From contig VGAC01000015.1 of the NCBI GenBank assembly GCA_016870865.1, forward strand, positions 1-40,864: DNA of 40,864 bases, read 5' to 3'. Made by a program: the position numbers and the translations under genes. The notes beneath the pieces are model-generated. The model did not search any database, had not been told where the DNA came from, and saw only the letters and a list, made by a program, of their open reading frames with translations. Positions 9,307-24,542 of the stretch are shown piece by piece (within the stretch, counting starts at the first letter, position 1; each line of letters begins with the position of its first letter). Origin of the DNA: Actinomycetota bacterium. GTDB taxonomy: Bacteria > Actinomycetota > Acidimicrobiia > Acidimicrobiales > Ilumatobacteraceae.

Positions 9307-11295
9307 ATGAAACTTGCTGATCTCACGGCGCCAAGCGACCTGCGCGGACTCTCCTACGGGCAATTGAACGAGCTCGCCGGCGAGATTCGTGACTTCATCG
9401 TGCAGGCCGTTTCCGAGACCGGTGGCCATCTTGGCTCGAACCTCGGTGCGGTGGAACTCACGATCGCGTTGCATCGGGTGTTCGACAGTCCCACCGATGC
9501 GATTCTGTGGGACACCGGCCATCAGGCGTACGTGCACAAGTTGGTGACCGGTCGCGCTTCTGAATTCACGCGGTTGCGTCAGGCACAGGGTTTGTCGGGT
9601 TACCCCAGCCGCAGCGAAAGTACCCACGACTTCATCGAGAACAGCCATGCATCGACGGTGCTGTCGTATGCGTACGGCATGGCGGTTGCGCGCGACCACG
9701 CAGTGCACCACGACATCACCCCCGAGCACAGGCACATCGTTGCCGTTATCGGTGACGGGTCGATGACCGGCGGACTCGCCTACGAGGCGTTGAACAATCT
9801 CGGTCACTCGGGCCGCAGGGTCATCATCGTCCTCAACGACAACGGTCGCAGTTATGCACCGACGATTTCGCAGCTCACCGTCTCATCGACCGCGCCGTCG
9901 CTCGGTGAAGACATCGACGAGGACGATCCGAACTTCGCCGACAAGATCGCCGACCGGTTGGCGACGACACTCACCAACATACGCCTGAACCCCACCTACG
10001 TGCGCCGCCAGCGCCGCATAGAACAGTTCCTCCGTGACCTGCCTGCGGTCGGTCGCCAAGCAGGTCGCAGTATGGAGGCGGTCAAGGCTGCAGTGCGTGA
10101 GTTCTTGCAACCGCCGGGGTTCTTCGAGGCCCTCGGTGTGCGCTACATCGGCCCGATCGACGGCCACGACATCGAAGCCGTCGAACGCGCATTGCGATCC
10201 GCCGAACAACGCTCCGACGAGGGTCCCGTGTTGCTGCACGTCGTGACACAAAAAGGTCGGGGCTATTCGCCCGCCGAGGACGACGATGAAAAGCACCTGC
10301 ACGACGCACCCGTTTTCGACCCACAGAGCGGCCCGCCCAAGGCGATCCTCACCGGTTACACGCAGGCCTTTGCCGACACGTTGCTGAAGGAAGCCGATTC
10401 CGACTCGCGTATCGTCGCCATCACGGCGGCGATGCCCGGCCCAACCGGATTGTTGCCCTTCGAGCGTCGTTTCCCCGACCGCTTTTTTGACGTCGGCATT
10501 GCAGAACAGCACGCGGTAACGGCCGCCGCCGGCATGGCCATGTCGGGTCTTCGTCCCGTGGTCGCCGTCTACAGCACGTTCCTCTCGCGCGCATGGGACC
10601 AGGTGGTCTACGACGTCGCACTCCACAAGTTGCCCGTCGTGTTCTGCCTCGACCGCTCGGGAATCACCGGCGACGACGGCCCCAGCCACCACGGTGTGTA
10701 CGACATGACGCTTCTCTGCAAGGTGCCCGGCATGCGAGTGCTTGCCCCTTCTTCGGCGCAGGAACTCCAGCAGATGCTCCACGACGCAATGACACTTGCC
10801 GACGATGGCCCCGTCGCGATTCGCTACCCGAAAGGCACGGCGCGCCACGTGGACGACACCGATGTCGGAGCGGGCCTTGCGGCCCGACGTTTGGTGTCGC
10901 AGTCGGCGCCGGGTACCAAAGTTGCCGTTCTCGCCATCGGCAAACTGGTCGGCAATGCCCTCAAGGCCGTCGAATCAATGGGGACGGACACGAATATCGA
11001 GTTGTGGGACGTCCGCTCGTGCCAGCCGCTCGACCCAGAGATGATCACATCGGCGGCAGCGGCCGACGTCGTGATCACCCTCGAGGACGGCATCGTCGAA
11101 GGCGGCGTGGGTGCCGCCATCGCACAACACATCGAGGCACGCGTCGCAGCAACGGGTGGCGCGATGCCACGCGTGCACACGATGGGCGTCCCGACGCGTT
11201 TCATCCCACAGGCAAAGCCCGACGTGATTCTCGCCGAACTCAGCCTCGATGCCGCGGGCATCATGGGCGCAATCCGCGCCGCCACCGGCCGCTGA
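9307..11295 (+). CDS. dxs: 1-deoxy-D-xylulose-5-phosphate synthase
   Basis: 662 aa. Dxs condenses pyruvate and glyceraldehyde-3-phosphate using TPP, the first step of the MEP isoprenoid pathway. Signatures: GGHLGSNLGAVELTIALH near the N-terminus, DTGHQAYVHKL, the TPP motif GDGSMTGG followed by VLNDNGRSYAPT (GDG...N), the transketolase-type DVGIAEQHAVTAAAGMA with the catalytic Glu, and DRSGITGDDGPSHHGVYD. Full length for the family, slightly long because of a loop near residues 195-235. ATG start 50 bp from the divergent SDR. Its TPP demand connects it to the thiamine operon at 21.2-25.2 kb, though not physically. Confidence 0.97.
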   Translation: MKLADLTAPSDLRGLSYGQLNELAGEIRDFIVQAVSETGGHLGSNLGAVELTIALHRVFDSPTDAILWDTGHQAYVHKLVTGRASEFTRLRQAQGLSGYPSRSESTHDFIENSHASTVLSYAYGMAVARDHAVHHDITPEHRHIVAVIGDGSMTGGLAYEALNNLGHSGRRVIIVLNDNGRSYAPTISQLTVSSTAPSLGEDIDEDDPNFADKIADRLATTLTNIRLNPTYVRRQRRIEQFLRDLPAVGRQAGRSMEAVKAAVREFLQPPGFFEALGVRYIGPIDGHDIEAVERALRSAEQRSDEGPVLLHVVTQKGRGYSPAEDDDEKHLHDAPVFDPQSGPPKAILTGYTQAFADTLLKEADSDSRIVAITAAMPGPTGLLPFERRFPDRFFDVGIAEQHAVTAAAGMAMSGLRPVVAVYSTFLSRAWDQVVYDVALHKLPVVFCLDRSGITGDDGPSHHGVYDMTLLCKVPGMRVLAPSSAQELQQMLHDAMTLADDGPVAIRYPKGTARHVDDTDVGAGLAARRLVSQSAPGTKVAVLAIGKLVGNALKAVESMGTDTNIELWDVRSCQPLDPEMITSAAAADVVITLEDGIVEGGVGAAIAQHIEARVAATGGAMPRVHTMGVPTRFIPQAKPDVILAELSLDAAGIMGAIRAATGR

Positions 11296-15584: not shown

Positions 15585-15995
15585 ATGTCACCGACGGAGG
15601 CAACATTGACCTACGAGGCGGAGTCCACCTTCGAGGCGGCGATGCCCACGCGCGAACTCACACTCGCCGAGGCCCGGGCATGGCTCGAGGAACTGTGCCG
15701 CGCCGAGGACCTCGACACCCCCGATCTGCACGTGGCGCGCCTGCGACCAACCTCCGAGGCCGCGGCGGTACCCGATGAGTGGTGCCTGCTGGTGGCCGAC
15801 GTCGCGCCGACCCAGCACACCCTGTTGCACGAACTGGCCCATCTCTCCTGCGCGAACCGGGGGCACGGACGCGAGTTCCGCACGCAACTCGTGCGCTATC
15901 TGCGACGCTGGGTGTCGATCGAACACGCAGCCGACCTGCATGCCCGTTTCGTTGCGGTGGGCCTGGGTGTCGACCCGTTCGCTGCGACGCGCTAG
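15585..15995 (+). CDS. small HExxH putative metallopeptidase (TIGR04338/Rv0185-like)
   Basis: 136 aa. A zinc-protease type motif HELAH is at residues 82-86, in THTLLHELAHLSC, and GHGREF at 93-98 could give a third ligand (His94), as in SprT-like folds. The first 75 residues hold strand-rich sequence. The size, motif layout and upstream DUF2786 neighbour fit the actinobacterial family I recall as HEXXH_Rv0185 (TIGR04338). No substrate is known. The ATG at 15585 follows the DUF2786 stop by 67 bp. Its TAG stop lies in a CTAG tetramer that also supplies the stop of the convergent thiolase. Confidence 0.75.
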   Translation: MSPTEATLTYEAESTFEAAMPTRELTLAEARAWLEELCRAEDLDTPDLHVARLRPTSEAAAVPDEWCLLVADVAPTQHTLLHELAHLSCANRGHGREFRTQLVRYLRRWVSIEHAADLHARFVAVGLGVDPFAATR

Positions 15996-17188
15996 TCGAG
16001 TTCGGTCCCAACTACCGAGACGAAACTGACGCACGCGCCCGGAGCTCCGCCGAGGTTGTGGGTCAGCGCCCTCGTCTTGCCGTCTGCGATGCTCTTGATC
16101 TGACGCGCACCGGCCTCGCCGCGCAACTGCGTCCAACATTCGAACAACATCCGCAGGCCCGATGCTCCGATCGGATGCCCGAACGACTTCAACCCGCCGT
16201 CGGGATTGACCGGCAGTTCACCATCGAGGTCGTAGGTGCCCGACAGCACCTCTTTCCACGCGGTGCCGCGCTCGGCGAAGCCGAGGTCTTCCATCAACAC
16301 CAACTCCGTGGGCGTGAAGCAGTCGTGCACCTCGGCCATCGCGAGTTCCGCGCGCGGGTCGGTGATGCCGGCCTGGCTGTAGGCGTCGTCCGCACTGTGC
16401 ACGACTTCGTCGAACGTCGTGTAGTCGTAGGCAGGATCGATGGGGCCGGCCGCGGGGCCCGCCACGAAGGAGAGCGCCTTCACGTACAGCGGCCTGTCGG
16501 TGTACTTGTGGGCGTCTTCCGCACGCACGATGATCGCGGCGGCCGAACCGTCGCTGACACCGCTGCAATCGAAGATGCCGAGCGGGCCGGCCACGAGCGG
16601 GGAGCACGCGATGGTCTCCATCGGTACTTCCTTCTTGAACTGCGCCCGCGGGTTCAACGCACCGTTGCGGTGGTTCTTCCAGGCGATACGCGTCAGTACC
16701 TGCTTGAGTTCCGACTCGTCGACGCCGTACTTCTTCGCATAGGCGGGAGCAAGCAGCGAGAAACTCGCGGGTGCGGTGACGGTGGCCTTCGTACCGTCGT
16801 CGGCGGGAGCCGACACGACGAGACCCGAATAGCCCGAGTCCTTCAACTTCTCCACACCGATCGCCATGACGACGTCGTAGGCGCCCGACGCAACCGCGTA
16901 GCACGCATTGCGGAAGGCTTCGCTGCCCGTAGCGCAGTAGTTCTCGACGTGGGTCACCGGCTTGTGCTGAATCTTGAGCGGGCGGCTGAGCGTGAGTCCC
17001 GACAAACCCGAGCCCATCGTGCCCAACCAAAAGGCATCGATGTCATCGAGGTTGACGCCGGCATTTTTCAGCGCCGCATCAGACGACTCGATCAACATAT
17101 CGTCGGTGCTCTTGTCCCAGTGCTCGCCGAAGTTGGTGCAGCCCATACCGATGATTGCAACCTTGTCGCGGATTCCATGACTTGCCAT
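15992..17188 (-). CDS. SCP2-type thiolase / acetyl-CoA acetyltransferase-like protein
   Basis: 398 aa, thiolase superfamily of the sterol-carrier/lipid-transfer type. The nucleophile region is VENYCATGSEA with C85. The other active-site loops are EVHDCFTPTE, GHPIGASGLRM and the C-terminal GGAPGACVSF, which differs from the CxxGGG of degradative thiolases, as is usual in this subgroup. Family members cleave or form C-C bonds in sterol side chains and long acyl-CoAs, and several need a partner DUF35 protein. The upstream gene on the same strand encodes just such a domain, fused to an HMG-CoA-synthase-like domain. GGGAG lies 8 nt before the ATG at 17188. Confidence 0.9.
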   Translation of the reverse strand: MASHGIRDKVAIIGMGCTNFGEHWDKSTDDMLIESSDAALKNAGVNLDDIDAFWLGTMGSGLSGLTLSRPLKIQHKPVTHVENYCATGSEAFRNACYAVASGAYDVVMAIGVEKLKDSGYSGLVVSAPADDGTKATVTAPASFSLLAPAYAKKYGVDESELKQVLTRIAWKNHRNGALNPRAQFKKEVPMETIACSPLVAGPLGIFDCSGVSDGSAAAIIVRAEDAHKYTDRPLYVKALSFVAGPAAGPIDPAYDYTTFDEVVHSADDAYSQAGITDPRAELAMAEVHDCFTPTELVLMEDLGFAERGTAWKEVLSGTYDLDGELPVNPDGGLKSFGHPIGASGLRMLFECWTQLRGEAGARQIKSIADGKTRALTHNLGGAPGACVSFVSVVGTELD

Positions 17189-17242
17189 CGTTCACTCCCT
17201 GCTTTGGTGCCACGCCCTGACGGGCTTCGCCAGACTCATGCG

Positions 17243-18649
17243 CTAGACCCTCACGGGCTTCGCTTTCCAGAAATAGTTGTGGATGCCGTCGACGGTGTAG
17301 AGGCGACGGAACGTCATCTCCACGCGGTCGCCGATCTTCACCGACGCCGGGTCGACATCGGTAAGTTCGCATTGGAACCGGCCGCCGCCATCAAAATCGA
17401 TGACCGCCGCCACGACCGGCGGGCTCATGCTGTAGGCCAAACGGTCGACGGTGTAGGTGGCGATCGTGGCCTGGACGTCGGCCATCCGCACCATTTCCAT
17501 CTGGTCGATACTGCCCGACTTCATGCTGATCCGCGCCGGGGGCAGATACACGAAACCGCTTTCATCACGGCTGCCGTACAAGCCGTACTTCCACGCCTGC
17601 GAGCGCAGGCTCGGCGGGCCGGCCGGGCGATCAGGCTCGGGACGACGCGGCGGTTCACGGTGCAGGAACCCGCGCCACGTGAGGAACTGTGCATAGGTCA
17701 GGTCGTTGCGACCCGCAGCAATTTGTCCGCGAACGGTCAGTTCGGCGACTTGGCGGGCACGATATTTGGTGATTGCATCGGTGGTGCGCAACAGCCACAC
17801 GTTCACGCCATCGGCGAGTAGCACCACCGCGATGATCTGGCCGGGCTCGGCACGGTCGAGAACGTCGGCCAGCATCACACCCCATTGCGCCGTACCCGCA
17901 TTGCCGATCGCTGCCGACAAGTCGTCGGCCACCGATTCGCCTGCGACACCACATGCCTTGACTGCTGTCTTGACCGCACGCGTGTGCAGACCTGAGAAGA
18001 TTGCGTGTCCGACGTCGCCGGGCGCCAGATTCGCACTCTTGAGCGCGTCGCTGAATGCATTGTCGACCAGTGGCGCGTAAGCATGTTCACCGAAACGCTC
18101 TTCCCATTGTTTGCTTGCCGTTTCACCCGGCTGACGCCACCGGTCCGTGAACTCGACGGTCGCACTTGCCCCACCGATGACTTCGGCAATGACGCCTTCA
18201 TCGCCGAAACAGAACGCGGCGGCGGCGTCGCCACCGTTTGATTCATCCGAGCCACCCGGAAGGCCCGTGCGAATGTCGGACAGGATCGCGATCGCATTGC
18301 CGTTGCCGGCGCCCATCATCGCAGCGACGCCGCTGCGTACCGAGCCGATCGTATCGAAGGCGATTGTCGAGGCGGGAAGGCTCAGCGCTGCATGAATCGT
18401 GTTTGCGTTCGTCTTGTCGAGGTACGCAGGGTTGGTCGTGGCGAACCACAGCGAAGCGGGCACCCAGTTTGCCGACGCGTTGCGCAGTGCGACACGCCCG
18501 GCCTCCACGGCCATCGATGTCGTGTCCTGGTCGAAACTCGCTACCGCACGCTCACCTTTTCCGCCTCCTGCGCCGAGCGAAGTCGTGATGGCACCGCGCT
18601 GCAGACGCCAATAAGGGATGTGGGTCCCGTAGGCGACGATTCCGGTCAT
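17243..18649 (-). CDS. HMG-CoA-synthase/KAS III-like domain fused to DUF35 OB-fold domain
   Basis: 468 aa with two parts. Residues 1-300 follow the HMGCS/KAS III thiolase fold (MTGIVAYGTHIPYWRL, SLWFATTNPAYLDKTNANTIH, FSGLHTRAV, IGNAGTAQWG with the GNxG Asn at about 250). Residues 315-468 follow DUF35: a linker helix, GFVYLPPARIS, then an OB-fold with VDRLAYSMSPPVVAAVIDFDGGGRF and VKIGDRVEMTFRRLYT. Two losses stand out: where the catalytic Cys should precede SG the sequence is TIGSVRSG, with Arg105, and the zinc-ribbon CxxC pairs of DUF35 are absent (YGLYGSRDESG). So the first domain is unlikely to be a standard synthase. It may be a structural partner of the thiolase next door (54-bp gap). 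A 20-bp tandem repeat lies upstream. Confidence 0.85.
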   Translation of the reverse strand: MTGIVAYGTHIPYWRLQRGAITTSLGAGGGKGERAVASFDQDTTSMAVEAGRVALRNASANWVPASLWFATTNPAYLDKTNANTIHAALSLPASTIAFDTIGSVRSGVAAMMGAGNGNAIAILSDIRTGLPGGSDESNGGDAAAAFCFGDEGVIAEVIGGASATVEFTDRWRQPGETASKQWEERFGEHAYAPLVDNAFSDALKSANLAPGDVGHAIFSGLHTRAVKTAVKACGVAGESVADDLSAAIGNAGTAQWGVMLADVLDRAEPGQIIAVVLLADGVNVWLLRTTDAITKYRARQVAELTVRGQIAAGRNDLTYAQFLTWRGFLHREPPRRPEPDRPAGPPSLRSQAWKYGLYGSRDESGFVYLPPARISMKSGSIDQMEMVRMADVQATIATYTVDRLAYSMSPPVVAAVIDFDGGGRFQCELTDVDPASVKIGDRVEMTFRRLYTVDGIHNYFWKAKPVRV

Positions 18650-18680: not shown

Positions 18681-18720
18681 AATCCAGTGAAGGAAACTTG
18701 AATCCAGTGAGGAAAATTAC
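18681..18720. repeat. two-copy 20-bp tandem repeat upstream of the HMGCS-like/DUF35 gene
   Basis: AATCCAGTGA occurs at 18681-18690 and again at 18701-18710, each followed by a similar GGAAA tract, giving a 20-bp period. It sits 32-71 bp upstream of the minus-strand start at 18649, in the gap before the Nfu gene's 3' end. It could be a paired operator (two helical turns apart) or a chance duplication. A TATTGT box lies 11-16 nt before the ATG, compatible with a near-leaderless promoter. Confidence 0.5.
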
Positions 18721-19388
18721 GAGTAGAAGGGGTTCTCGCCACTGGTGTGGTCGGTGAGGTCACGGACCTTCAGCACACCCGGCACTTTTTCGACCAGCGT
18801 CGTCTGGACCCCTTCGAGCATCGTCATGCGGCTCATCGAGCAACCGTGGCAGCCCCCACCCATCGTGAGGTACGCGGTTCCTTCGCCGTCGTGGCCGACG
18901 AAGGTGACAAAGCCACCGTGCGCGGCGAGTGCCGGGTTGACGTCGTCGCGCAGGACATCGTTGATCGACACAGACATTGCATCGTCGCTGACCAGACCCT
19001 CGACCGACGGGACGAGCGGCTTGTTCGGGTTGCGGATGATGAGACCCTGCGTGTCGTTGTAGTCGAGGATCGAACCGGTGAGCAGTTCGATGCTGTTTGC
19101 GGGGATGATGATCTTGAGACCTTCGATCGTGCGCACCTCGTCGGTGAAGGCCGCAGTGGTCACCTTTTCGAAGGAGAGGTCGTAGCGGAAGTCCTCGCCC
19201 GGGGCGCTGATGATTTCGACGCGCAAACCCAGCTGCGTGGTTTCGGGTTCCATGTCGCGCAGTTCCTTCAACTTCGCGACACCGTCGGCCGTGACGTCGA
19301 CGATCGGGTTGTCGGCGGTGGTACCGCCTTCTGCGAAGGGGCTGGTGGGGACTGTCGAACCTGCGAGTGGACTGGGGGGTGTCGTCAC
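18717..19388 (-). CDS. NfuA-type Fe-S cluster carrier protein
   Basis: 223 aa. Residues 30-135 are an A-type (HesB-like) domain whose cluster cysteines are absent, as in E. coli NfuA (GLRVEIISAPGEDFRYDLSF, GLKIIIPANSIELLTGSILD). Residues 145-215 are a NifU C-terminal domain with the cluster-binding CxxC in GGGCHGCSMSRMTM. NfuA-type proteins hold a 4Fe-4S cluster between two chains and deliver it to targets such as aconitase and lipoyl synthase. Likely targets in this window include MoaA and the molybdoenzyme. The start GTG at 19388 gives a Thr/Pro-rich, probably disordered first 25 residues; a later start cannot be excluded. It lies 36 bp after the SDR gene. Confidence 0.92.
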   Translation of the reverse strand: MTTPPSPLAGSTVPTSPFAEGGTTADNPIVDVTADGVAKLKELRDMEPETTQLGLRVEIISAPGEDFRYDLSFEKVTTAAFTDEVRTIEGLKIIIPANSIELLTGSILDYNDTQGLIIRNPNKPLVPSVEGLVSDDAMSVSINDVLRDDVNPALAAHGGFVTFVGHDGEGTAYLTMGGGCHGCSMSRMTMLEGVQTTLVEKVPGVLKVRDLTDHTSGENPFYS

Positions 19389-19424: not shown

Positions 19425-20207
19425 TCAATAACTCGAGATGGCACCGCCACCGTCACATTCGATGCGCTGGCCGGTCACGTAACCCGCGCCCGCGGAGCAG
19501 AACCACAAGATGACTTCGGCCACATCGTTCGGCTGGCACACCCGCCCGAAGGGCGATTTCGCATCGAGTTCGCGCAGATCTTCCATCTCACGCTTGCCGT
19601 GCATCGAACGCGCGAGGCGCACCCCCATGTCGGTCTCCACCAGTCCGGGCGCGGCGATGTTCACGTGGATGCCGTTGTGGCGCTCTTCCTTGGCCAGGGT
19701 GTAGGCCAACGCTTCCATCGCGGCCTTGCCCATGTTGTACGGCGCACCCTTCGCGGAATAGTGGGAAGTGGCGACCGACGACACAAAGACGATGTCGCCG
19801 CGACCCCGCGTGCGCATCGAGGGCAGTACCGCGGCAGCGAGTTGGTGTCCACCGATCGCATGGACGGCGAGCAACTTCTCGACCTCGGCCGCGTCGGTGT
19901 CGGCGACCACCCTGCCCGTCGAGGCGATACCTGCGTTGTTGACGAGGATGTCGATGAATCCAAAGTCGGCGATGACATCTCGGACCATCACACGGGTTGC
20001 CGCGTAGTCGGCGACCGATGCCTGGTACGTCCGCGCGCGGCCACCCGCCGCGACTATGTCGCTGCGCACGGCCTCGGCCCCGTCGGCGCCTCGCGAATAG
20101 TTGATCGCCACGGTCGCACCCTCGGACGCGAGCCTGCGACTGATGCCCGCCCCGATACCTCGACCACCACCCGTGACGAGGGCAACACGTCCTTCGAGAA
20201 GTCCCAT
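19425..20207 (-). CDS. SDR-family oxidoreductase (FabG-like)
   Basis: 260 aa from ATG 20207; an in-frame ATG at 20219 would add four residues (MFAH). Motifs: TGGGRGIGAG for the cofactor, VNNAGIAS, catalytic Ser in VSSVATSHY and Tyr-Lys in YNMGKAA, then AAPGLVETDMG and TGQRIECDGGGAISSY at the end. Strongly like 3-oxoacyl-ACP reductases and related 3-hydroxyacyl-CoA dehydrogenases; the exact substrate is unknown. It starts 18 bp from the divergent, broken cation-efflux gene. The downstream Nfu gene may be cotranscribed. Confidence 0.9.
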   Translation of the reverse strand: MGLLEGRVALVTGGGRGIGAGISRRLASEGATVAINYSRGADGAEAVRSDIVAAGGRARTYQASVADYAATRVMVRDVIADFGFIDILVNNAGIASTGRVVADTDAAEVEKLLAVHAIGGHQLAAAVLPSMRTRGRGDIVFVSSVATSHYSAKGAPYNMGKAAMEALAYTLAKEERHNGIHVNIAAPGLVETDMGVRLARSMHGKREMEDLRELDAKSPFGRVCQPNDVAEVILWFCSAGAGYVTGQRIECDGGGAISSY

Positions 20208-20225
20208 GTGTGCAAACATAATCAA

Positions 20226-21149
20226 GTGCAGGACGGCAGTCGGAAAGCGATCCTTGCGGCGTTCTTCGCCAACTTCGGTATCGCCATTGCGAAGTTTGTC
20301 GGCTTCCTGATAACCGCTTCGGCGTCGTTGTTGGCCGAGGTGGCGCACTCGCTGGCCGACACCGGCAACCAAGCCTAGTTGTTGCTCGGTGGCAGTCGCG
20401 CCAAGCGTCGGCCCAGTGCATCACGCCAGTTCGGCCACGGGCGCGAGCGCTACTTTTGGGCCTTCGTCGTTGCCCTTGTTCTCTTCAGCATGGGCGGCCT
20501 CTTCGCGCTCTACGAGGGAATCAAGAAATTGATCCACCCGCACGAAACCGAAAACTTCGGTGTCGCGGTCGTGATTCTCGTTGTCGCGATCTGTCTTGAG
20601 ACGGTTTCCCTCATAACAGCCATCCGTGAAGCGCGCCACGTGAAGTCGGCATCGATGTCGTGGTGGCGGTTCATCCGCACCTCGAAGCAGCCCGAACTTC
20701 CCGTCGTCCTGCTCGAGGACATCGGCGCTGAAGTTGGTCTCTTTCTCGCACTCTTTGGTGTCGTCTTGGGCCACTACACGCACAACGCCCGATGGGACGC
20801 AATCGGGTCGGGGTCGATCGGCATCCTCTTGATCGTCATTGCGGCCGTGTTGGCGGCAGAGATGAAGAGCCTTCTCATCGGCGAGTCGGCCTCGACCGAC
20901 GACGAAGCAACGATCCTCTCTGCGTTGCGTGCACACGCCGCGGTTGTCACGGTACTCAACCTGCGCACCCAACATCTTGGGCCCGATGAATTGCTGGTTG
21001 CCGTGAAGCTCGAGTTCCGCGGCGACCTTGCCGTTGCCGAAGTGTCGGCCGCGATCAACGAAGTCGAGGCCGGGGTGCGCGGGGCGTGCCCGGCGGCGCG
21101 GTTCATCTTCATCGAGCCCGACATTGCTCGTGAGGAAACAGCGCGCTAG
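20226..21149 (+). pseudogene. cation diffusion facilitator (CDF) transporter interrupted by in-frame TAG
   Basis: Reading from GTG 20226 to the stop at 21149 gives 307 codons of a CDF transporter. TM1 (AAFFANFGIAIAKFVGFLITA) and the TM2 metal site HSLAD in EVAHSLADTGNQ are on the 5' side; TM3-TM6, an NxxxD site (NARWD) in TM5 and a C-terminal domain ending FIFIEPDIAREETAR follow. Codon 51, at 20376-20378, is TAG, exactly between NQA and LLLGGSRAKRRP, where CDF proteins have a run of leucines. The frame is unchanged on both sides. A single T-to-A change from TTG would explain it. The 3' part alone lacks TM1 and TM2. TAG ends several other genes here, so recoding is unlikely. Pseudogene or sequencing error. 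Confidence 0.85.
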
Positions 21150-21256: not shown

Positions 21257-21934
21257 ATGAGCGGCCAGCGGAACGAAAAACGGGTACTCGTGGTCACCGG
21301 TGGTTCGATTCTGCGCTCCGTCCCGGTGCTGGATTCGTTCGACATGGTGATTGCGGCCGATTCGGGTGTCGACTCGGCATTCGCCCTCGGCCTCACCCCG
21401 AACGTCGTCATCGGCGACCTCGACTCGGTGTCGGATGCGGGTCTGGCGCGTGTACGAGCATCGGGCATCACCGTCCTCTCGTCCCCGACCGACAAGGACT
21501 TCACCGACACCGAGCTCGCACTCTCCCACCTGCTTGATGCCGACGCCACGCACGCCACGCTGCTCAGCCCCGGCGGTGGTCGTCTCGACCACGCCCACGG
21601 GGTTCTTTGTGCTCTGGCAAATCCGCTCCTCGCATCCGTGTCGATCGAGGCGGTCATCGACACCGCACACGTGACGATTCTCCACGGCCGGACGTCGCGT
21701 CGATTACCCCGGCGCTCGCCGATCACCTCGTTGCACGCGATGAACGGTGTCGCGCGCGGCATCACCACCACAGGATTCCGCTGGAATCTCTCCGGAGAGG
21801 ATCTCGCACCCTGGGCAGGCCGCGGGGTGAGCAACGAGATGATCGCGGTTGAGGCCGACATCGTCGTCGACGGGGGAACCCTCGTCGTCATCCAACCTTT
21901 TTCCCACTCAGCACTGATCGGAGCAGCCCCATGA
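21257..21934 (+). CDS. thiN: thiamine pyrophosphokinase
   Basis: 225 aa. The enzyme transfers pyrophosphate from ATP to thiamine, making TPP. Motifs of the TPK catalytic domain: AADSG at 34-38, GDLDSVS at 53-59, and KDFTDTELAL at 80-89, followed by LLSPGGGRLDHAHGVL. The C-terminal part has the thiamine-binding beta-sandwich (RGITTTGFRWNLSGEDL, GVSNEMI). Directly under a TPP riboswitch, whose 3' strand is its ribosome site, and coupled to the thiamine transporter genes by a 4-nt overlap, so specificity for thiamine is well supported. Confidence 0.95.
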   Translation: MSGQRNEKRVLVVTGGSILRSVPVLDSFDMVIAADSGVDSAFALGLTPNVVIGDLDSVSDAGLARVRASGITVLSSPTDKDFTDTELALSHLLDADATHATLLSPGGGRLDHAHGVLCALANPLLASVSIEAVIDTAHVTILHGRTSRRLPRRSPITSLHAMNGVARGITTTGFRWNLSGEDLAPWAGRGVSNEMIAVEADIVVDGGTLVVIQPFSHSALIGAAP

Positions 21935-22971
21935 AAAAAATCACTCTCGCCCTTGCAGCCTCGGCAATGAGCCTCGCGGCGTGCGGTGGAGACGAGGCGT
22001 CAGCGCCGAAGTCACTCACACTGCTCGCCTATGACTCATTCACGCCTTCCGAGGGAATCTTCGAGGCATTCACACAGGAGACGGGAATTGCTGTCGATGT
22101 GGTGACAGGCGGCGATGCCGGAGAATTGGTTGCCAAGGCGGTCCTCACGAGCGGCGAGCCCGAAGGTGACGTCCTCTGGGGTGTCGACAACACGTTGATG
22201 TCCCGGGCCCTTGCCGCAGACGTTTTCGTGGCGCATACTTCGGTGCACCGCGACGACCTCGACTCGCGGGCTCTGGCGCTCGTGGAGGACAACCTCCTCA
22301 CACCCGTCGACACCGGCGACGTGTGCGTGAACTACGACAAGACATGGTTCGCCGAGAGAGGAATCAAACCACCTGCGTCGCTTGCCGATCTCGCCACACC
22401 TGCCTACAAGGGTCTGCTCGTGGTGCAGAATCCGAACACTTCGTCACCCGGTCTTGCGTTCCTGCTTGCCACCATCGCTCAATTCGGCGAGAACGACTGG
22501 CAGGACTACTGGTCGTCACTGCGCGAGAACAACGTGAAGATCGTCGACGGCTGGACCGAGGCCTATACCGTGGAGTTCTCGGGTTCGTCGGGAAAGGGCA
22601 GTCGCCCACTCGTCGTCAGCTACGCATCGAGCCCACCCGCTGAAGTCGTCTTCGCCGATCCTCCCGTTGCCGAACCGCCGACCGCAGTCATCGAGTCGAC
22701 CTGCTTCCGGCAGGTCGAGTTCGCAGGTGTTCTGCGCGGGACCAAGAGTGCCGAGGCAGCCGGGAAGTTGGTCGACTATCTGTCGGGGCCCACGTTCCAA
22801 GCCGATCTTCCGCTGACCTTGTTCGTCAACCCGGCGAACACGACGGTCGACCTGCCACAAGTCTTCACCGATTTTGCAGCAATCCCCGTCGCACCGCTGA
22901 CGATGGACCCGGCCGCAATCGAACAAAACCGAATCAAGTGGCTCGAAGCCTGGCGGGTCGCCGCATTGTGA
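21931..22971 (+). CDS. thiB: thiamine ABC transporter substrate-binding lipoprotein
   Basis: 346 aa. The N-terminus is a lipoprotein signal (MKKITLALAASAMSLAACGG) with Cys18 in the lipobox LAAC. The mature part is a periplasmic-binding fold of the ThiB/iron-Fbp type (LTLLAYDSFTPSEGIFEAF, ETGIAVDVVTGGDAGELVAKA, EGDVLWGVDNTL, VCVNYDKTWF). ThiB binds thiamine, TMP and TPP in E. coli. Position between thiamine pyrophosphokinase and the permease under a TPP riboswitch fixes the substrate. Coupled on both sides by 4-nt overlaps (ATGA, GTGA). Confidence 0.95.
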   Translation: MKKITLALAASAMSLAACGGDEASAPKSLTLLAYDSFTPSEGIFEAFTQETGIAVDVVTGGDAGELVAKAVLTSGEPEGDVLWGVDNTLMSRALAADVFVAHTSVHRDDLDSRALALVEDNLLTPVDTGDVCVNYDKTWFAERGIKPPASLADLATPAYKGLLVVQNPNTSSPGLAFLLATIAQFGENDWQDYWSSLRENNVKIVDGWTEAYTVEFSGSSGKGSRPLVVSYASSPPAEVVFADPPVAEPPTAVIESTCFRQVEFAGVLRGTKSAEAAGKLVDYLSGPTFQADLPLTLFVNPANTTVDLPQVFTDFAAIPVAPLTMDPAAIEQNRIKWLEAWRVAAL

Positions 22972-24542
22972 CGGCGGCGGACGCGCACGGGCCCTACGGG
23001 CGGGTGGCACGCCGTCTGGTCATCGTGCCCGGTGTCTTTGTTGCCCTCTTCACCGTTTGGCCTGCATTTGCGACGTTGCGACGCGGGTTCGACATCACGG
23101 CAGCGATAACTGAAACGGGCTTGCGCAACACGGTGTTGTTCACGGTATGGCAGGCGACGGTCAGCGCGGCGCTGACGTTGATCGTCGGACTGCCCGTCAC
23201 GTGGATCGTCAGTCGTCACGAATTCGTCGGCCGACGCATCGTGCGTGCGCTCACCCTCGTGCCGTTTGTCCTCCCCACGCTCGTCGTCGGCCTGGCTTTC
23301 CGTGCGGTTCTGCCCGCCGACCTGCGCTCCGGCGTGCTTCCACTCGTCGTGGCACATGTTTTTCTCAACGTCGCCGTCGTCGTGCGCGTCGTCGGTGCAC
23401 GCTGGGAGTCACAACCCCGTTCCTTTGACGAAGCGGCCGCGACACTCGGGGCGGGAGCCATCACTCGTTTTCGCACCGTCACATTGCCGATGCTGCGCGG
23501 CAGCATCGCCGGTGCGGCCGGCCTGGTGTTCATGTACTGCTTCACCACCTACGGTGCGGCACGGGTTCTTGCGGGTCCTTCACGGCCCGTGACCGAAACC
23601 GAGATCTACAGGTTCGCTGTCCTCGCGGGTGACATGCGCGCGGCCTCGGCGCTGGCCGTCACCCAGGTCGTAATCGTCGGAGCCGTGCTTGCACTAACAG
23701 CGCGGGGCGCCTCCCATACTTCGGTGCCGCAACGACCCTTGGCGCTGCGTACCGCCGCACCTCTACGGCGTTTCGGCGTGGCCATCGGCGCCGTGTTGAT
23801 CACCGTGGCCTTCGTGCTTCCGATCATCGGCTTGGTTTCCCGATCGATACGGGTCGGTGACGGTTTCTCCCCCGCCGCGTGGCGCCACGCATTCGGTGGG
23901 GCGGGTGCGCTCGACGTGGTCTCGTCGTTGACGGCTTCACTCACGACGGCAGCCGCCGCCGCGACGTTGTCGATCATGATCGGCTCGCTCATTGCGTTCG
24001 CCCAGGTGCATGCCGCATCGCGAGCGGCACATGGTGTCGCAACCGCCTGCGAGGTGATCCCCGTGGTGGTGTCGGCTGTGGTCGTTGGCCTGGGCTTTCT
24101 GCTTGCTTTCCGCACCAGCCCGTTCGACTGGCGCGGGCAGTGGTGGTTGCTGCCCGTGTCGCACGCCGTCGTCGCACTTCCACTCGTCTCACGCACGGTG
24201 GTCGCCTCCATGCGTCAGATCCCCGCAGATTTGCGCAGTGCCGCGTCGACCCTCGGTGCCAGCCCGCTTCGCGTACTGGCCTCGATCGATGCATCACTGC
24301 TGCGTCGACCGATCGGGGCTGCCACCGCTCTGGCAGCGCTCGTTTCCCTCGGCGAGTTCGGCGCATCGAGTCTCCTGAGTCGACGCGGCAATGAAACCCT
24401 GACGATGGCCGTGGGTCGTCTGCTCGGACGGCCGGGCGACGTCGTCCAGGCCCAGGCGTTCGTTGCAGCGGTCGTTCTCGCCGCACTGTGTCTCGCGCTC
24501 GTCACCGTGGTCGATCTCGCCACAACCTTGGGGCAACGATGA
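22968..24542 (+). CDS. thiP: thiamine ABC transporter permease (two fused halves)
   Basis: 524 aa, about twelve membrane segments formed from two homologous halves, as in ThiP. Each half carries an EAA loop: DEAAATLGAGAITRFRTVTLP around residue 155 and RSAASTLGASPLRVLASIDASLL around residue 425. The GTG at 22968 overlaps the thiB stop (GTGA) and is preferred; another in-frame GTG at 22938 lies within thiB. The permease forms the membrane channel for thiamine together with ThiQ. Confidence 0.93.
   Translation: MTAADAHGPYGRVARRLVIVPGVFVALFTVWPAFATLRRGFDITAAITETGLRNTVLFTVWQATVSAALTLIVGLPVTWIVSRHEFVGRRIVRALTLVPFVLPTLVVGLAFRAVLPADLRSGVLPLVVAHVFLNVAVVVRVVGARWESQPRSFDEAAATLGAGAITRFRTVTLPMLRGSIAGAAGLVFMYCFTTYGAARVLAGPSRPVTETEIYRFAVLAGDMRAASALAVTQVVIVGAVLALTARGASHTSVPQRPLALRTAAPLRRFGVAIGAVLITVAFVLPIIGLVSRSIRVGDGFSPAAWRHAFGGAGALDVVSSLTASLTTAAAAATLSIMIGSLIAFAQVHAASRAAHGVATACEVIPVVVSAVVVGLGFLLAFRTSPFDWRGQWWLLPVSHAVVALPLVSRTVVASMRQIPADLRSAASTLGASPLRVLASIDASLLRRPIGAATALAALVSLGEFGASSLLSRRGNETLTMAVGRLLGRPGDVVQAQAFVAAVVLAALCLALVTVVDLATTLGQR

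Follow-up and report, generated by a model that had tools for sequence, protein, structure and literature searches.

An HMGCS-like pseudoenzyme fused to a DUF35 domain with a cysteine-free ribbon is a probable structural partner of an SCP2-type thiolase in Ilumatobacteraceae

Several described enzymes pair a thiolase fold with a protein of the DUF35 family. In the archaeal acetoacetyl-CoA thiolase/HMG-CoA synthase (HMGCS)/DUF35 complex (6ESQ/6ET9), which has a role in the mevalonate pathway, the HMGCS carries its cysteine and is unfused. The Friedel–Crafts acyltransferase PhlABC (PpATase, 5M3K; CsATase, 9SKH) also consists of three separate chains, an active thiolase-fold subunit, an HMGCS-like subunit without Cys and Glu, and a DUF35 subunit, PhlB, which keeps a Cys4 site; this type of acyltransferase C-acylates phenols independently of CoA and assembles as (A2C2)2B4. 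PMC6392133 states that PhlA has neither the Cys nor the Glu, that the substrate is contacted by PhlC residues only and that only PhlC residues act in transfer, and PMC2954200 describes DUF35 fused to thiolase-superfamily members and terms PhlA an inactive member. Both the architecture and the idea of a pseudoenzyme subunit are, then, already known. Here we describe a related pair of genes in a 40,864-nt stretch of DNA (the window; VGAC01000015.1, assembly GCA_016870865.1) from an Actinomycetota bacterium of the Ilumatobacteraceae, where a 468-residue protein that joins an HMGCS/KAS III-like domain to DUF35 is encoded beside a 398-residue thiolase. What is new, within the literature searched, is a stable lineage of fused proteins whose ribbon lacks cysteines; neither such a lineage nor a zinc-free DUF35 was found in the titles and abstract beginnings of the open-licence literature.

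Both genes lie on the minus strand. The fusion gene occupies 17243..18649 with its stop codon (17246–18649 without it), and its ATG at 18649 is the start common to its relatives. The thiolase gene occupies 15992..17188 with its stop (15995–17188 without it), and its start at 17188 is separated from the end of the fusion gene by a gap of 54 nt, the frame being shared. Both open reading frames (ORFs) had been recognized in an earlier, sequence-only reading of the window, and its description of the longer protein as an HMGCS/KAS III-like domain fused to DUF35 is borne out by Pfam, NCBIfam, profile alignments and an AlphaFold2 model. The HMGCS/KAS III-like domain (residues 1–330; 17660..18649) matches the NCBIfam archaeal HMG-CoA synthase model NF003274 over residues 1–329 (E = 8e-38) with 130.3 bits, below the cut-off of 244, and scores 83.2 against TIGR00748, below the equivalog cut-off of 353.35.

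Glu, Cys and His are the catalytic residues of HMGCS, two of which (Cys and Glu) are also named in PMC6392133; in S. aureus MvaS they are E79, C111 and H233. In profile alignments to 6esq_I, PhlA (5m3k_A, 9skh_A) and the S. aureus HMGCS (1tvz_A), these three positions read Thr72, Val104 (codon 18338..18340) and Ser219 in the window's fusion, Val104 and Thr72 corresponding to Gly115 and Cys83 of PhlA. The sequence-only reading had placed an arginine at the nucleophile position; this was off by one, since Arg105 is the next residue and aligns with a Lys that follows the Cys in 6esq_I and the Gly in PhlA. Its claim that the catalytic cysteine is lost was correct, and the loss extends, beyond what chance would give, to every fusion compared. 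We aligned 101 fusions, the window's own included and two rows being identical, taken as closed ORFs of 441–529 residues from loci L001, L005 and L031–L130 (the rows of L005 and L034 are the identical ones; L111–L129 were picked by hand from the table of a 246-genome draw, and L130, with no fusion ORF above the score limit, is not counted). The Cys column contains Val in 47, Ala in 20, Leu in 12, Ile in 9, Pro in 8, Thr in 2, Ser in 2 and a gap in one, and Cys in none; in all 101, Glu is absent from the Glu column and His from the His column. No conserved cysteine was found elsewhere in the active site of these fusions, the His column being Cys in 4/101. Near the former active site, the residue after the Cys position is Arg or Lys in 97 fusions (Arg in 94), His222 is kept in 83 and Arg224 of an HxR motif in 97. 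With its catalytic set lost and the equivalog cut-offs missed, the domain is, judged from its sequence, not an HMG-CoA synthase.

The sole surprising element is the DUF35 ribbon. The OB-fold of the DUF35 part (residues 385–468; 17246..17497) is well recognized, PF01796 (ChsH2-type OB-fold, DUF35) matching residues 389–448 with 52.4 bits against a cut-off of 27.1 and also matching all 65 fusions of a second alignment, A2, made from the window's protein and the 64 of 96 fusions that passed a length limit of 441–504 residues and a redundancy filter. In the ribbon that precedes it (residues 353–384; 17498..17593), none of the four zinc-ligand positions is a cysteine, as the sequence-only reading had noted; they read Asp362, Ser364, Ser375 and Ser378. 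No match to the zinc-ribbon model PF12172 was seen in this protein at E 0.01, against 35 matched fusions among the 65 in A2. PMC12329534 (2025) gives four Cys ligands in all DUF35 homologues compared there, bar the Cys3His1 of CtShy. Among our 101 fusions the ribbon is all-or-none: 62 have no cysteine, 39 have four and none is intermediate. The replacements are specific, the four positions of the 62 cysteine-free ribbons being Asp (55) or Gly (7); Ser (50), Thr (9), Ala (1), Asn (1) or Asp (1); Ser (60), Gly (1) or a gap (1); and Gly (36), Ser (14), Glu (7), a gap (3) or Thr (2). Mean pairwise identity of the ribbon is 0.667 in the cysteine-free group (62 rows) versus 0.657 in the cysteine-bearing one (31 rows, eight distant rows excluded). 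On this evidence the ribbon of the lineage seems to be metal-free.

By record title, the 62 cysteine-free fusions come from 30 Acidimicrobiia, 16 other Actinomycetota and 2 records with other phylum or class names, 14 carrying no name, and the 39 cysteine-bearing ones from 6 Acidimicrobiia, 12 other Actinomycetota, 4 Rokubacteria and 1 Chloroflexota, 16 carrying no name. Three records titled Bifidobacterium breve (L038, L040 and L084) contain fusions that fall within cysteine-free groups rich in Acidimicrobiia, and these titles look wrong. Lack of the ribbon cysteines marks a lineage and does not extend to the family as a whole. A quick tree built without the ribbon columns needs three changes of ribbon state, as several independent losses would produce, but a single cysteine-free clade was not rejected by the approximately unbiased test (p 0.78), and the one-clade tree outscored the free search by 19.7 log units, the group having been named after inspection of the tree. 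All seven outgroup rows carry four ribbon cysteines and loss would therefore be the simpler direction, on a tree with long branches. A single loss of the cysteines is thus allowed by the data, not shown by them.

Three observations touch on the ribbon. Of the loci with room for it, 37 of 61 cysteine-free ones and none of 35 cysteine-bearing ones have an NfuA-like gene no more than 1.5 kb upstream (five further loci had no room). A link between this gene and the cysteine-free state was considered and is not claimed because phylogeny confounds it: there is one independent pair on supported branches and three on all branches, both figures coming from a count of 38 carriers. In one relative (L119, 4340–10258, minus strand) the fusion–thiolase pair is duplicated in tandem, and both fusions have four ribbon cysteines. 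The genome of the window itself encodes, on its contig 2 (L144, 4044–5730, minus strand), a second thiolase-like/DUF35 pair on separate chains, adjoining an enoyl-CoA hydratase and a P450; its ribbon, inspected by eye, retains one cysteine (ACPRS). The presence of two zinc-poor DUF35 proteins in a single genome might reflect a tendency to economize on zinc.

The ratio of nonsynonymous to synonymous substitution (dN/dS; NG86) in six pairs of close relatives was 0.026–0.079 for the fusion, 0.005–0.035 for its ribbon, 0–0.038 for its OB-fold and 0.007–0.038 for the thiolase; some synonymous distances are near saturation, which makes the individual values rough. Of the three fusion domains, the KAS domain had the highest ratio in five of the six pairs and equalled the ribbon in the sixth. 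These values point to strong purifying selection on the fusion and, together with its conservation, rule out a pseudogene or an assembly artefact.

The neighbouring protein is an SCP2-type thiolase, scoring 606.1 bits against NF004810 (PRK06157; cut-off 403). An intact Cys85, claimed in the sequence-only reading, is found in 90/90 aligned thiolases (the window's included), as is His338 of the GHPIGASG motif, and His288 of the HDCF motif is found in 89. The steroid aldolases Ltp2–ChsH2(DUF35) and Sal–Shy(DUF35) (6OK1, 9MYR) share with the window the pairing of a thiolase fold with DUF35, as set out in PMC12329534. However, they have no HMGCS-like domain, aldolase residues replace the thiolase set and their DUF35 binds zinc (through Cys4, or Cys3His1 in CtShy); the same text gives the CtSal motif as YDCY, and this Tyr-based motif is not present in the window's thiolase, which reads HDCF and keeps Cys85.

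AlphaFold2 modelled the fusion, from 65 aligned fusions, with a mean per-residue confidence (pLDDT) of 92.8 and a predicted TM-score (pTM) of 0.93; the ribbon blocks reached 85–90 and the linker ahead of the ribbon 58–72. Its top structural match is 6esq_I (Z 43.7, root mean square deviation (r.m.s.d.) 1.9 over 326 residues), with PhlA-type chains at Z 41.9–42.9. The fusion and thiolase modelled as one joined chain of 885 residues gave a pLDDT of 90.0 and a pTM of 0.87, the artificial linker (469–487) being the only stretch of at least three residues under 50. By our own estimate, random placement of two bodies of this size would give a pTM near 0.55, and the predicted mutual placement therefore appears confident. 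The thiolase half of the joined model matches 6esq_A best (Z 53.2, r.m.s.d. 1.8 over 372 residues), then BbsB, SCP2 thiolases and PhlC-type chains. Among the 50 fold matches listed for each protein, all are HMGCS/KAS III or thiolase folds, which does not exclude other folds.

The pair is common. Among GTDB loci, taken as the best 80 of 531 matches and so not giving population figures, 74 have a thiolase on the same strand whose start lies no more than 350 nt downstream, and in two more the contig ends. A search of 61 related genomes found a fusion match at E 0.001 in 40, some of them short; the 30 loci drawn from this search include a thiolase in 28, several of these cut by the contig or broken, and the remaining two end at the contig edge. 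Pairing with the thiolase is conserved. In one metagenome-assembled genome (L031, about 9490–10280, plus strand; same contig as L004) only two pieces of a thiolase were found, of 96 and 178 residues and in different frames, through either a true break or a fault of assembly. When 246 genomes of the phylum were drawn and no more than six candidates scored in each, 105 had some match and 37 a near full-length one; among the carriers with names are records of Frankia, Nocardia, Mycobacterium, Rokubacteria and Chloroflexi. Matches also occur in 35 plasmid records, and the pair was present in the four regions examined (two from Rhodococcus, one each from Variovorax and Novosphingobium), where the same two genes adjoin in catabolic-looking operons, are annotated only as ‘OB-fold domain-containing protein’ and ‘acetyl-CoA acetyltransferase’, and the former show 34–53% identity to the fusion. 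Neighbours in these regions include acyl-CoA dehydrogenases, CoA-transferases, enoyl-CoA hydratases, MaoC dehydratases and SDRs (short-chain dehydrogenases/reductases), with a ring-hydroxylating dioxygenase in one, and representatives of ten recurrent neighbour clusters comprise three acyl-CoA dehydrogenases, two SDRs, two type III CoA-transferases, one NifU, one amidohydrolase and one without a match. Among relatives, the operon context is suggestive of acyl-CoA catabolism. As far as the literature searched shows, the widespread pair is uncharacterized; PMC8084838 mentions a DUF35 protein from cells grown on acetone.

The archaeal complex supplies the best structural match for both window proteins, and its three parts (6esq_I, 6esq_E and 6esq_A) are the same three found here. 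A mevalonate role is nevertheless rejected because the HMGCS residues are missing, so that the domain would not serve as a catalytic HMGCS subunit taking over acetoacetyl-CoA, and because the window carries DXS, a marker of the methylerythritol phosphate pathway; besides, no match exceeds the archaeal HMGCS cut-off and PF01154 has no match in the genome, which is 96% complete. PhlABC resembles the pair in having an active thiolase-fold subunit beside a pseudo-HMGCS and DUF35, but its PhlA- and PhlB-like parts are fused in the window, the DUF35 part has lost the ribbon cysteines that PhlB keeps on a chain of its own, and substrate and operon differ. Both window proteins also match the HMGCS-like and thiolase-like chains of MucABC from Streptococcus macacae (9VBO/9VBT), where a profile alignment places Glu in the Cys column of 9vbo_A; MucABC, however, has separate chains and is more distant, with 20% identity to the fusion over 330 residues. 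The benzoylsuccinyl-CoA thiolase BbsAB (7PXP) is, like the window pair, an SCP2-type thiolase with a DUF35 partner. BbsA is a lone zinc-binding DUF35, and we know of no HMGCS-like domain in BbsAB.

The fusion is most likely a structural partner of the thiolase and not an enzyme, and we think it probable that the two proteins form a PhlABC-like thiolase complex in which the two non-catalytic subunits have been fused. This is favoured because the closest structures of the fusion (6esq_I and PhlA) and of the thiolase (6esq_A) come from the same complexes. The residue losses, the pairing, the selection, the joined model and the homology to 6ESQ and PhlABC are all consistent with the non-catalytic scaffold or acyl-CoA-binding subunit proposed in the sequence-only reading. 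Neither result named there as contradicting the proposal was obtained, since no cysteine is conserved at another active-site position and the two proteins are predicted to lie against each other. The two genes would then yield one hetero-oligomeric thiolase, whose only catalytic subunit would be the 398-residue protein: Cys85 would become acylated, and the thiolysis or condensation of a 3-ketoacyl-CoA would involve the conserved histidines. No chemistry would come from the fusion. Its HMGCS-like pseudoenzyme would dock on the thiolase dimer as HMGCS does in 6ESQ and PhlA in PhlABC, and its DUF35 domain would both bridge the two bodies and wall the acyl-CoA cleft, possibly touching CoA. In PMC12329534 the zinc finger is interpreted as giving the substrate cleft its shape, and PMC2954200 speculates that the DUF35 zinc ribbon contacts the nucleotide part of acyl-CoA. 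Fusion of the subunits would fix their ratio at one to one, and the ribbon of this lineage would retain its fold and place while no longer requiring zinc. Three points weigh against such a complex. The joined model is an artificial chain through stop codons, with no non-partner control beside its pTM of 0.87; the thiolase lies 0.9–2.2 kb away in 4 of the 80 GTDB loci; and the window's operon contributes only an SDR and an NfuA-like gene, which does not fix the pathway.

The conserved basic residues near the old active site bear on two other explanations. The fusion might act as an acyl-CoA carrier, its DUF35 and dead KAS pocket passing acyl-CoA to the thiolase or the nearby SDR without a lasting complex; PMC2954200 puts forward a carrier role for DUF35 proteins, and 94 of 101 fusions have Arg directly behind the lost Cys while 97 keep the HxR Arg. 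We regard this as unlikely, given that the counterparts in 6ESQ and PhlABC belong to stable three-protein complexes and that the predicted placement of fusion and thiolase is confident. The same conserved positions (Arg105, with His222 and Arg224) might instead serve an HMGCS-like domain that is still an enzyme through other residues, such as a decarboxylase or CoA-ester hydrolase. That appears more doubtful still: none of the three catalytic residues (Cys, Glu, His) survives, their substitutes vary, and it is the KAS domain that has the highest dN/dS in five of six pairs, with a tie in the sixth. Least credible of all is a fusion in decay, a broken enzyme joined to a broken zinc finger, as the absence of catalytic and metal residues alone might suggest. 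The low dN/dS of the whole protein, with at most 0.035 in the ribbon, speaks against it, as do the conserved, specific replacements and a ribbon identity as high without the cysteines as with them.

The remaining genes of the apparent operon precede the fusion on the minus strand in the order SDR, NfuA-like, fusion and thiolase. The NfuA-like (NifU-domain) protein (18717..19388) matches PF01106 and its position is kept in relatives. The SDR oxidoreductase (19425..20219; PF13561, PF00106) is the first gene; its listed ORF starts at 20372, but the ATG near 20219 agrees better with homology, and the order is the same in loci of the genus. Elsewhere in the window (21257–24542, plus strand), a thiamine pyrophosphokinase-like gene lies ahead of genes for a substrate-binding protein and an ABC permease, by eye a possible thiamine uptake cluster.

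On balance we lean towards a view of the pair as a mostly actinobacterial thiolase complex whose DUF35 bridge has turned metal-free, possibly in one ancestral step, all four cysteines having been lost together to a near-fixed Asp/Ser/Ser/Gly-or-Ser set while the ribbon would still act as a cleft wall and as glue to the pseudo-HMGCS. The pair would also condense PhlABC, a biocatalyst of applied interest, into two chains. If the metal-free view is true, zinc in DUF35 would be a replaceable stabilizer of the fold that stands outside CoA binding and catalysis, and the large conserved cysteine-free group beside its cysteine-bearing relatives would amount to a natural experiment on the importance of the metal.

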